A stretch of DNA of 64,000 bases, taken from Nitrososphaerota archaeon. Its GTDB lineage: Archaea > Thermoproteota > Nitrososphaeria > Nitrososphaerales > Gagatemarchaeaceae. The stretch is taken from NCBI GenBank assembly GCA_027339745.1, contig DAHWNW010000001.1, positions 124,001-188,000 of the forward strand. The letters are read 5' to 3'. The position numbers and the translations under genes were made by a program. Below the pieces are notes generated by a model. That model ran no database searches. It saw only the letters and a program-made list of their open reading frames with translations, and was not told where the DNA came from. Shown here piece by piece: positions 26,633-30,894 of the stretch. Numbering within the stretch: position 1 is the stretch's first letter; each line of letters starts with the position of its first letter.

Positions 26633-29600
26633 CTACTTTCCGACGCAGAGGAGGAGCGCTTCAGCTTCTTCCTTGGTCGAGAGTACCTGGACCTGGAGGT
26701 CGACGGCCTTGCGCCTCACCTTGTGGAACGCCTCGGAGTCGACGTTGGTGTTCGCATTGAACGAGAGCACGAATGAGACCTTCCCGCCTGATATGAGACC
26801 CATGACCTCGGCCATCCTTTCATCCAGGGCCCGCTCGTCTAGCTCCAGCACCTCTATCCCCGCCCCCCTGAAGCGAGACAGTAGCGGCTTGACCCCGGAC
26901 GCATCCTGCCAGGGCTCTAGGAGGAGTATCCCCACGTCCCCCTTCGCCGGTATCCGGTGCCCCGTCGCCAAGAAGGCCTGAGACAGCGCCTCAGCGAAGG
27001 TGTCTCCGAAGCAAGCGACCTCCCCGGTGGAGCGCATCTCAACGCCGAGCTTCGGGTCCGCTCCATCCATCTGCAGGAACGAGAACATGGGCGCCTTTAC
27101 GGCGAAGCGCTTCGGCTCTTCGACGTCGGCGGTCCTCCGTAGAGACCCGCCTTCGACCGCGGGGGCGACGACGTCGATCAGGTTGACGCCCGTCGCCTTG
27201 CAGACGTATGGGAGCGAGCGCGAGGCCCTGAGGTTGCACTCTATGACGTAGACCGATGCCCCCCGGACGAGGAACTGGATGTTGAGTGGGCCCCTCGCCT
27301 TCAGCTCCCTTGCTATGCTCCTCGTGTAGACCCTTATCTTCTCCTTGGCGGCCTTACTGACGGTGACGGTGGGGATGCTCATGATCGCGTCCCCGGAGTG
27401 TATCCCCGCGTCCTGGACGTGCTCCATGATGGCGCCTATCACGGTGCTCTTCCCGTCGGACACCGCGTCGACCTCTACTTCCCGCGCCCCCTCGATGAAC
27501 TCGCTGACGACGACCGGGTACTCAGGGTTCACCATGGCCGCCTTGGTGATGTAGGTCTCCAGCTCGGAGGAGTCCCAGATGACCCTCATGGCGGATCCGC
27601 TGAGGACGTGGGAAGGCCTGACGATCACTGGGTATCCTACCCTGGAACAGAACTTTGCCGCCTCGGCTGGGGAGCGGAATGAGCCCCAGGTCGGCTGCGG
27701 GATCCCGAGGCGGTCCAGCAGAGCGCTGAACTTGGACCTGTCTTCTGCCGTCTCTATGGACTGCGAGGAGGTGCCGAGGATCGTGACCCCTCTCTTCTCC
27801 AGGGACTCGGCGAGGTCATTGGGCGTCTGCCCCCCGACGCACAGGACCATCCCTTCAGGCTTCTCCTTGTCATAGATGGCGAGGAGCCTCTCGACGGTGA
27901 GCTCTTCGAAGTAGAGCCTGTCGCTCATGTCGAAGTCTGTCGAAACAGTCTCGGGGTTGCAGTTCACCACGATGACCTCATACCCCAACCCCTTCAATGC
28001 CCACGCCATGTTCATGGTACCCCAGTCGAACTCGACGGAGCTCCCGATGCGGTAGGGCCCCGCCCCAAGGACTATCACCTTCCGCGCGGAGGTCGGTGGT
28101 GCCTCGTCGACCGCGGCGTCGAAGGTCTGGTAGAGATAGTTGGTCCTGGAGGGCCACTCGGCAGCCAGTGTGTCGATCACCTTTGTGACAGGCGTCACCC
28201 CTAGGCGCACCCGCGCCTCTCGCACCCTGTCTTCTCCGATCCCCAGGAGGTCCCCGATCTGCCTGTCTGAGAACCCGAGCTTCTTCGCCCTGGCCAGGAC
28301 CTCCCTGTTCGGGGGGGCGCCGGGAGGGAGCGACTCGAGGAAGGCGTGGAAGTCGACGACGTTCTTGTACTTGCTTACGAACCATGGGTCGACTTCGCTC
28401 TTCTCGGCTACTTCTTCTTCCCTCGCGCCTGCTCGGAGGGCCTCGGCTAGATCGAACGCGATGGTGTCGGACGGCCGCTCGAGCCTCCCCAAGGCCGTCG
28501 AGAGGTCATGGGGGCTCCCCCGCCTGACCACTCCGTCGTGCTGCGGGTTGGCCATGCGGGCCGCCTTCTGGATGGCCTCCTCGAAGCCCCTCCCCACCGC
28601 CATGACCTCCCCGATCGACTTCATGGAAGTCCCTATGATCCTGGAGGCTCCGTCGAACTTGACGGTGTCCCAGCGGGGCATCTTCACTACAAGATAGTCC
28701 AGGGAAGGCTCGAAGAGGGCGGTGGTTATCCCAGACACCCTGTTCTTCAACTCGGTGAGGTGGTACCCCAGCGCGAGCTTCGCGGCGACGTATGCCAGAG
28801 GGTACCCGGTAGCCTTGGAGGCGAGGGCAGAGGACCTCGAGAGCCTTGCGTTGATCTCGATGGCGGCGTACCTCTCGGATCCAGGGTGGAGGGCGAACTG
28901 GATGTTGCACTCCCCGACGATGCCGCATGTCCGCGCGGCGCGGAGCGAAGCGGTGCGGAGGAGATGGTACTCGGCGTTGGTGAGCGTCTGTGAGGGTGCG
29001 ACGACGATGTTGTCCCCGGTGTGGACTCGCATGCCTAGCATGTTCTCCATGTTGCAGATTATGACGCTGTTATCGTCCCTGTCGCGCATTATCTCGTACT
29101 CGATCTGCTTCCACCCGCCCAGGTACTCCTCCACCAGGACCTGGTGCGCGAGGGAGCTGTTCAGGCCTCTCTCGACTATCTGCGACAGCTCTTGGAGGTT
29201 CCGTGCGACCCCACCCCCCTTGCCTCCGAGGGTGTAGGCGACCCGGATTATCACCGGGAACCCCAGCTCGTCCGTCGCCTCTTTCGCCTCGTCGAAGGAG
29301 TAAGCGGCGAAACTGCGTGGGACGGGGACGTCGCAGCCAATCATTGTCTTCTTGAACAGGTCCCTGTCTTCGGTCAGCTGAATCCCTCTGACGGGGGTGC
29401 CGAGGACCTTCACTCCGTACTTCTCGAGCACGCCCCTCTCTGAGAGGCCGATGCCGCAGTTGAGGGCCGTCTGCCCCCCGAAGCTGAGGAGGATGCCGTC
29501 GGGCCGCTCCCTCTCGATGACCCTAGATACCGAGTCGACAGAGAGCGGGACGAAGTGGATGCGGTCAGAGAACTGGGGGCTGGTCTGAATCGTCGCTATG

Positions 29601-29746
29601 TTGGGGTTGACAAGGACGGAATCGACCCCCTCCTCTTTCAGCGCCTTCAGGCACTGGCTCCCGGAGTAATCGAACTCCCCGGCCTCGCCTATCTTGATGG
29701 CGCCGCTCCCGATGACGATGACTTTCTTTACGCTTTCACGCTTCGT
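26633..29746 (-). CDS. carB: Carbamoyl-phosphate synthase large subunit, apparent ACG start
   Basis: An ATP-grasp synthase (about 1037 residues) making carbamoyl phosphate from bicarbonate, ammonia and two ATP. Tandem halves are visible: IGSGAIKIGEAGEFDYSGSQ and the second copy LGAGPYRIGSSVEFDWGTMN, each with GGQT and ATP-grasp cores, and a C-terminal MGS-like domain. The ORF track begins at a GTG (29431) that would delete the first 105 residues, the essential pre-ATP-grasp domain. The frame is open upstream to a TGA but has no ATG, GTG or TTG. ACG at 29746 gives MKRESVKKVIVIGSGAIKIG, and GAGGTGA sits 6 nt before it. It overlaps carA by 19 nt. Confidence 0.95.
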   Translation of the reverse strand, partial: TKRESVKKVIVIGSGAIKIGEAGEFDYSGSQCLKALKEEGVDSVLVNPNIATIQTSPQFSDRIHFVPLSVDSVSRVIERERPDGILLSFGGQTALNCGIGLSERGVLEKYGVKVLGTPVRGIQLTEDRDLFKKTMIGCDVPVPRSFAAYSFDEAKEATDELGFPVIIRVAYTLGGKGGGVARNLQELSQIVERGLNSSLAHQVLVEEYLGGWKQIEYEIMRDRDDNSVIICNMENMLGMRVHTGDNIVVAPSQTLTNAEYHLLRTASLRAARTCGIVGECNIQFALHPGSERYAAIEINARLSRSSALASKATGYPLAYVAAKLALGYHLTELKNRVSGITTALFEPSLDYLVVKMPRWDTVKFDGASRIIGTSMKSIGEVMAVGRGFEEAIQKAARMANPQHDGVVRRGSPHDLSTALGRLERPSDTIAFDLAEALRAGAREEEVAEKSEVDPWFVSKYKNVVDFHAFLESLPPGAPPNREVLARAKKLGFSDRQIGDLLGIGEDRVREARVRLGVTPVTKVIDTLAAEWPSRTNYLYQTFDAAVDEAPPTSARKVIVLGAGPYRIGSSVEFDWGTMNMAWALKGLGYEVIVVNCNPETVSTDFDMSDRLYFEELTVERLLAIYDKEKPEGMVLCVGGQTPNDLAESLEKRGVTILGTSSQSIETAEDRSKFSALLDRLGIPQPTWGSFRSPAEAAKFCSRVGYPVIVRPSHVLSGSAMRVIWDSSELETYITKAAMVNPEYPVVVSEFIEGAREVEVDAVSDGKSTVIGAIMEHVQDAGIHSGDAIMSIPTVTVSKAAKEKIRVYTRSIARELKARGPLNIQFLVRGASVYVIECNLRASRSLPYVCKATGVNLIDVVAPAVEGGSLRRTADVEEPKRFAVKAPMFSFLQMDGADPKLGVEMRSTGEVACFGDTFAEALSQAFLATGHRIPAKGDVGILLLEPWQDASGVKPLLSRFRGAGIEVLELDERALDERMAEVMGLISGGKVSFVLSFNANTNVDSEAFHKVRRKAVDLQVQVLSTKEEAEALLLCVGK

Positions 29747-30894
29747 ATCTCTTCACCTCTTAGGGGCCTCGCCTTCCGCGTCATCTCGATGAACCTGTCG
29801 AAGACGAAGAGGGTGTCGTAGGGGCCGGGGGTCGCCTCAGGATGGAACTGGACCGCCATGCACGGCCTTGAAGCGTGGAGGACGCCTTCGATGGTGTTGT
29901 CGTCAGCGTTGGCGAACCACTGGCGCAGGTCGGTCCCTTTCAACGTCGTCTCAGAGATCGCATAGCCGTGGTTCTGGCTCGTGACATACCCTCTCCCTGT
30001 GGCGAGGTCCACGCACGGCTTGTTCTGCCCCCTGTGGCCGTACTTCAGCTTGAAGGTCTCTGCTCCCTGCGACATCCCCACCAGCTGCTCCCCGAGGCAT
30101 ATCCCTAGGACGGGGACTTCCCCGTCTATCAGCGACCCGACGCACTTCGCCGTGTCAGCCAGGAGCTGTGGGTCCCCAGGACCGTTGCATACGACGACCC
30201 CCGCTGGGTCGTGCTGCATGACCGCAGAATATGAGGAGTCGTAGGGGAGGCGGACGACCTGGAACCCGCGCCTGAGTAGGTTCCTCACTATGCCGAGCTT
30301 GGTCCCGCAGTCGAGGACGACTATCTTCGGACCCTCCCCCCCGTGGACGACGGGTCCAGGGACCGAGACCCCTTTCACCAGGTTCTGGGACGAGTAACTG
30401 CTTGCCTTCGCGAGCAGTTCGGCGAGCTTCCCTCTATCCTTGGCGTCGTGGCCGCACGCTATGATCCCCATCATCACCCCTGCCTCCCTCAGCTTCGAGA
30501 CCAGGGCCCTTGTGTCGACCCCTTGTATCCCTGGGATGCCTTCCGACTCCATCCACTTCCAGAGGGGCCTCTCCGAAGCCCAGTGGCTCGGAGAGTCGCA
30601 AGCCTCCTGGACCACGATCCCCCTCACCTTGATCGAGTCAGACTCGAAGAAGCGCGGGAGGTCGAACTTGTCCCTCGCAGAGTAGGGCGGGACACCGTAA
30701 TTCCCTATGAGCGGATAAGTGAAGGTGAGGATCTGGCCCGCGTAGGAAGGGTCTGTCATCGACTCGAGATAGCCGACCATGCCTGTGTTGAAGACCACCT
30801 CGCCTACGGAGTCAGCTTCGGCGCCGAAGCCCTGGCCGAAGAAAGTAGAGCCGTCCTCGAGGAGAAGAAGCGCGTCCCTTTTCGCAGCGAGCAC
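29728..30894 (-). CDS. carA: Carbamoyl-phosphate synthase small subunit (glutaminase)
   Basis: A 388-residue subunit that hydrolyses glutamine and channels ammonia to CarB. The N-terminal domain shows EDGSTFFGQGFGAE and GYLESMTDPSYAGQILTFTYP; the class I amidotransferase domain has VLGICLGEQ with the catalytic Cys and FHPEATPGPYDT with the catalytic His and Glu. The usual GICLGHQ is GICLGEQ here. The start is GTG, preceded by a TATA (CCTTAAAAG) about 35 nt upstream, so carA is a promoter start for the carAB-nudix run. Confidence 0.95.
   Translation of the reverse strand: MLAAKRDALLLLEDGSTFFGQGFGAEADSVGEVVFNTGMVGYLESMTDPSYAGQILTFTYPLIGNYGVPPYSARDKFDLPRFFESDSIKVRGIVVQEACDSPSHWASERPLWKWMESEGIPGIQGVDTRALVSKLREAGVMMGIIACGHDAKDRGKLAELLAKASSYSSQNLVKGVSVPGPVVHGGEGPKIVVLDCGTKLGIVRNLLRRGFQVVRLPYDSSYSAVMQHDPAGVVVCNGPGDPQLLADTAKCVGSLIDGEVPVLGICLGEQLVGMSQGAETFKLKYGHRGQNKPCVDLATGRGYVTSQNHGYAISETTLKGTDLRQWFANADDNTIEGVLHASRPCMAVQFHPEATPGPYDTLFVFDRFIEMTRKARPLRGEEIRSVKA
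29753..29759 (-). promoter_or_regulatory. Shine-Dalgarno of carB, 6 nt before ACG
   Basis: GAGGTGA is followed by six nucleotides (AGAGAT) and then the in-frame ACG of carB. The same spacing is seen upstream of the ACG in the DHA2 pump. No canonical start codon lies within reach of this ribosome-binding site in the carB frame. Confidence 0.7.

Follow-up and report, generated by a model that had tools for sequence, protein, structure and literature searches.

The carB gene and its missing start codon

The question raised by this locus is where, and at which codon, translation of carB begins. The window, i.e., the whole 64,000-nucleotide stretch of DNA that was analysed, belongs to the order Nitrososphaerales, and its minus strand encodes both subunits of carbamoyl-phosphate synthase (CPS). 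The product of carB, an essential biosynthetic gene, is a full-length match to TIGR01369 (1331.6 bits over the curated cut-off, positions 2–1051 of 1052) and contains the Pfam CPSase_L domains. It is nearer to mitochondrial CPS1 (1001 bits) than to CarB from E. coli (833 bits). The end of carA and the start of carB overlap by 19 nt. The features at this junction are the following:

26633–29746, minus strand: carB, carbamoyl-phosphate synthase large subunit, 1037 amino acids if ACG 29746 is the start
29728–30894, minus strand: carA, small subunit, ending with TAA 29730–29728, in a frame different from that of carB
29744–29746, minus strand: ACG as non-canonical start, where relatives may have TCG or GCG, with the Shine-Dalgarno (SD) spacing seen at canonical starts
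29753–29759, minus strand: SD sequence GAGGTGA, 6 nt 5' of the ACG, overlapping the in-frame TGA 29755–29753
29429–29431, minus strand: GTG, first in-frame canonical start, use of which drops 105 residues
29737–29739, minus strand: GTG in the carA frame, occupied by GTG, ATG or TTG in 27 of 27 relatives, with a stop two codons on
29378–29731, minus strand: first pre-ATP-grasp domain (PF25596), residues 6–123, mostly 5' of the first canonical start

After the TGA at 29755–29753 the carB frame reads AGA GAT ACG (29746) AAG CGT GAA AGC GTA AAG AAA GTC, and no ATG, GTG or TTG is found before the GTG at 29431. This had been claimed in an earlier note on the same DNA, in which all coordinates proved correct, including the placement of GAGGTGA 6 nt before ACG 29746. 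The note also held that the segment skipped by a start at 29431 is the conserved CarB N-terminus with its pre-ATP-grasp domain, and three lines of evidence bear this out. Pfam finds PF25596 in two stretches, and both pre-ATP-grasp domains are present, the first one only with a start near 29746. Solved CPS chains align to CarB from the third residue onward, the 105-residue segment before GTG 29431 included. Finally, in comparisons with nine congeners, third positions dominate the substitutions from the ACG to codon 105 (e.g., 11/6/48 at positions 1/2/3), and the 20 codons 5' of the ACG show a flat pattern (13/13/10). Initiation at GTG 29431 is rejected on the coding-type substitution and the domain content upstream of it.

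Since the source genome (G000) is a 762-kb assembly of 60% completeness, an assembly error had to be excluded. Matches to carB were obtained in 58 of the 61 related genomes queried, and in all 27 carB genes of the window's family (f1; three genera) the interval is without a canonical start in the carB frame, including that of the complete one-contig genome G005. The missing start recurs in dozens of independent genomes, one-contig genomes among them, and the assembly error which the earlier note had named as grounds for withdrawing its claim is thus rejected. Loss of a base in codon 2 (ATT C-G AAG from ATT CCG AAG) would fit the letters and would still leave no canonical start.

The codon at the position of 29746 is ACG in 7, TCG in 19 and GCG in one of the 27 family members. 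The distance from the SD to this codon, in the GGAGG register, is 9 nt in 25 of the 27, which equals the mode for canonical carB starts in the order, and other families have a canonical or near-cognate codon at the aligned Met-Pro position. The best reading is that carB starts at the 29746 codon, as suggested by the SD spacing, the onset of coding conservation and the match to the Met codon in an alignment with relatives; across family f1, the first two of these are the basis of the predicted position. Aligning the starts of relatives, a check proposed in the earlier note, gave neither a fixed ACG nor a fixed ATG, so that the note's "ACG start" stands as regards position and falls as regards ACG specifically. 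A conserved ACG is accordingly rejected.

Two other routes into the carB frame make use of the junction with carA. Ribosomes might initiate at GTG 29739, which belongs to the carA frame, and shift by -1 into the carB frame before TAA 29730, given that GTG, ATG or TTG occupies this position in 27 of 27 family members. Such a start would be spaced 16, not 9, nt from the SD, there is no slippery site, codons 2–3 vary freely, the Arg/His/Leu-Glu codons of carB account for most of the invariant letters, and the odd-start families f11 and f12 are without such an NTG; we therefore regard it as very unlikely. The second route, a single CarA-CarB polypeptide produced by frameshifting at the end of carA, would draw on the 19-nt overlap of the frames and the lack of a carB start. 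It is extremely unlikely, considering that carA of G016 stops at a TAG just before the TCG codon, that the odd-start carB genes of family f8 are preceded by other sequence, and that the SD and its spacing are kept at the start codon. A third-frame GTG inside the SD, combined with a +1 shift at the TGA, was discarded because it is not conserved (GCG in G023, a stop in G016).

The tetranucleotide NTGA (29739–29736; N is G, A or T) is invariant among the 27 carB starts of family f1 in a frame other than that of carB, and protein constraint explains only part of this.

Start codons of carB across the Nitrososphaerales

A survey of the order covered the carB 5' end of 157 distinct genomes. The Met position is ATG, GTG or TTG in 76 of these and non-canonical in the other 81, where CTG, TCG, ACG, GCG, ATA, ATT, ATC, TTT and TTC are found. 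CTG is the carB start in many Nitrosopumilaceae, TCG and GCG occur in a Nitrososphaeraceae genus together with its neighbours, and ATA is found in family f12 and in two Nitrososphaeraceae/Nitrosopumilaceae genera. Four assignments are ambiguous, with a canonical codon nearby, and scoring them as canonical leaves the result unchanged. Most of the genomes surveyed are metagenome assemblies; the complete one-contig genomes G005, G045, G087, G109, G111 and G238 agree with them. The carB gene of G077 (L342) was excluded, as it contains extra stops and looks like a stretch of poor quality. This gene is intron-less and has two in-frame TAA codons together with several radical changes about 45 codons past the FDYSG motif, and it may represent either poor assembly or a decaying copy. 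The interpretation given in the earlier note is partly supported, its ACG being a single instance among the odd codons (NCG, CTG, ATA, ATT, TTT and others) found across the Nitrososphaerales. A literature search, which left most subscription journals outside, found no report on archaeal ACG starts or on such starts in ammonia-oxidising archaea. We know of no report of TCG or GCG as an efficient translation start.

How rare a missing start is within one genome was assessed on a single 363-kb contig, on which 298 orthologous ORFs were compared with those of two congeners. Conserved coding sequence 5' of every canonical start was found in only two of the 298, namely carB and rpoH, and together with the recurrence in 27 of 27 family genes this places the missing carB start beyond chance. 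The second gene, encoding RNA polymerase subunit H (G000:C11:104701-104961, minus strand; L403), lies about 19 kb outside the window and is likewise without ATG, GTG or TTG. Its apparent start in G000 is an ATA behind GGAGGTAACCCGGC. Within the genus, the rpoH start is ATA, preceded by GGAGGT, in three species (G000, G005 and G022) and TTG in two (G012 and G015). The rpoH case indicates that near-cognate initiation would not be special to carB; near-cognate starts behind strong SDs are rare in the genus, not unique.

A bulge-helix-bulge intron in carB of relatives

An insert of 20–40 nt is present in 82 of the 157 carB genes of the order (e.g., L019, L064, L077, L078, L218 and L032). It is located after codon ~25, at GEAGE^FDYSG, and often brings an in-frame stop or a change of frame; the remaining genes read GAG TTC unbroken. 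The window's own carB is one of the latter, with no insert at 29675/29674:

29674–29675, minus strand: empty intron site at the junction GEAGE^FDYSG, where the frame of the window is continuous (GAG TTC) and five congeners, like most of the order, carry the insert

Together with its flanks the insert folds as a bulge-helix-bulge (BHB), in which an outer GGAG/CUCC helix is followed by the bulge A-R^A, a 4-bp GGCG/CGCY helix and the bulge A-R^U, i.e., two 3-nt bulges on either side of a 4-bp helix. The stem is paired in 96.8% of cells, versus at most 57% when it is slid, and covariation is evident in 24 cells changed on both sides, a number as high as this being reached in 0 of 500 shuffles. The surrounding exon is also constrained. 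Synonymous-site entropy at codons -6, -5, -4 and -2 (ATC, GGA, GAA and GGC) is 0.27, 0.20, 0.39 and 0.10 in the intron-bearing genes and 1.48, 1.92, 0.92 and 1.72 in the intron-less ones, so that the flanking synonymous sites are frozen only where the intron is present. No match was found in Rfam. Two genes of the EndA type (PF01974), i.e., of the tRNA-splicing endonuclease, are present in every complete genome examined (G005, G015, G045, G109 and G113), and none was found in the 60% complete G000.

Within a single genus (f8 g39; L213, L218 and L336) the length of the intron ranges from 21 to 40 nt, and its ends and the flanking exon letters are fixed.

By its sequence and fold, the insert is an archaeal mRNA intron of the BHB type, and its splicing is predicted. 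It appears to be previously undescribed and was lost several times in the Nitrososphaerales; a literature search that left out most subscription journals found nothing on a carB intron in ammonia oxidisers. The clade of the window has lost the intron cleanly, the loss falling inside the window's genus.

The existence of this intron brings up the idea that a second BHB intron separates the rest of carB from an upstream exon holding the true start. In the 27 aligned family sequences there is no conserved structure upstream of the carB start, the 60 nt preceding the start hold no start codon common to relatives, and the SD directly neighbours the 29746 codon. This idea is extremely unlikely.

The closest known counterpart is the intron in the cbf5 pre-mRNA, which is cut between the second and third bulge residue by a hetero-oligomeric endonuclease and which shows lineage-specific loss (PMC2738675). 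Like it, the carB insert is short, resides in a protein gene, has a BHB fold and shows precise lineage-specific loss, with splicing, by a cut at the same place in the bulge and by a hetero-oligomeric EndA, predicted in the case of carB. The two differ in lineage, the cbf5 intron being one of the Desulfurococcales/Sulfolobales and that of carB one of the Nitrososphaerales, and the carB intron differs further in its length of 20–40 nt, in its position ~25 codons past the start and in its tie to non-canonical starts.

Reading of the non-canonical codon

We consider it probable that initiation takes place directly at the near-cognate ACG 29746, as part of a habit of weak starts and strong SDs tied to the BHB intron. 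The Met-initiator tRNA would mispair with the ACG and so allow translation of carB, and the place of initiation would be fixed by the strong SD upstream together with the overlap with the end of carA. Precedents are known from bacteria. Both infC (ATT in E. coli, ATC in Streptomyces) and sigR (GTC) have non-canonical starts with a regulatory effect, and in sigR a strong extended ribosome-binding site, AGGAGGTG, compensates for the weak codon (PMC5472188). They resemble carB in that a protein is encoded in frame without ATG, GTG or TTG, with an odd codon behind a strong site (PMC5472188). Unlike carB, these genes are bacterial and repressed by IF3, a factor which archaea are without; carB is set apart from them by the variety of codons, TCG and GCG included, found in a single gene within an order, and by its associated intron. 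As archaeal aIF1 destabilises non-AUG complexes (PMC6237735), odd archaeal starts are expected to be weak and may be regulated.

Editing of the mRNA from C to U, also put forward in the earlier note, would turn ACG into AUG, TCG into UUG, GCG into GUG and CTG into UUG, and loss of the intron through an edited, spliced cDNA would give intron-less relatives canonical codons. In agreement with this, the NCG codons are only ACG, TCG and GCG, never CCG, in three families, and the intron-less G113 has GTG where its congeners have TCG or GCG. Plant organelles offer a parallel, as their ACG starts are restored by such editing and the window's carB has ACG at the start position, although the ATA, ATT and TTT found at the carB start site do not fit an editing of that kind. 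The absence of CCG is likewise expected under near-cognate pairing. Moreover, there is no common sequence around the C between families, which differ in having it at codon position 2 or 1, and the literature search found no such mRNA editing for archaea. Editing is therefore ranked below direct near-cognate initiation, because it would leave ATA, ATT, ATC, TTT and TTC at the carB start, and ATA in rpoH, unrepaired. It accounts for ACG, GCG, TCG and CTG and is, overall, an unlikely explanation.

Association of weak starts with the intron

Non-canonical starts are found in 62 of the 82 intron-bearing versus 19 of the 75 intron-less carB genes, and 17 of these 19 belong to the window's own family. 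When this family is set aside, the numbers are 50 of 70 and 2 of 58, respectively. On a tree of the exon-2 proteins from 90 genomes, the intron state changed seven times and the start type 12 times. Seven independent pairs contrast in intron state; in about five of them the start type differs as well, always the same way round and never the reverse (two-sided p = 0.0625). Because the counts are not independent, the association is suggestive and not a proof.

A mechanism that could link both features follows from their proximity. With the intron only ~25 codons from the start, a ribosome that initiates on nascent RNA would quickly reach the BHB helix and open it, and a slow start would protect splicing. 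The weak codon behind a strong SD, a conserved habit of carB in the Nitrososphaerales, would accompany an intron that is excised by EndA; with slow initiation, the endonuclease would have made its cut in the pre-mRNA by the time the first ribosome came to melt the helix. Loss of the intron would relax the need for a weak start, and the codons would then drift back to ATG, GTG or TTG. Selection may have favoured a weak carB start as a means of holding ribosomes back from the start-proximal intron. The retention of an NCG start after intron loss in the window's clade counts against this reading, and it fits a recent loss within the genus. The full form of this proposal, namely that the carB start is kept weak because of the intron, that UCG and GCG, which are not known as starts, are used directly or after editing, and that the ACG of the window is a relic after intron loss, is put forward only tentatively, and we think it rather doubtful as a whole. 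The strength of the SD, with a median of -9.8 to -10.4 kcal/mol in genes with the intron or an odd start versus -7.2 kcal/mol in intron-less canonical ones, runs counter to a simple prediction that ribosomes are kept away from intron-bearing genes.

The weak start and the intron might instead be two independent ways to lower CarB output in slow-growing archaea. This would compete only with the causal part of the mechanism, and the two are not exclusive. As independence would allow, odd starts do occur in some genes without the intron, and 20 intron-bearing genes have canonical ones; the within-genus contrasts, where they differ, all point in the same direction. We regard independence as possible, if somewhat unlikely.

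Implications for archaeal gene expression

The source archaeon is related to the ammonia oxidisers and belongs to a group that ranks among the most abundant archaea. If the reading of near-cognate initiation next to a BHB intron is true, standard gene finders would overlook carB or cut it short in many genomes, owing to odd starts and a tiny intron. Archaeal mRNA introns would extend beyond cbf5, and the set of natural start codons would be wider. The link between start and intron would, if true, provide a directly testable case in which translation and splicing compete inside a cell that lacks a nucleus, and the cultured relatives Nitrosopumilus, Nitrososphaera and Nitrosotalea make the case of carB amenable to such tests.
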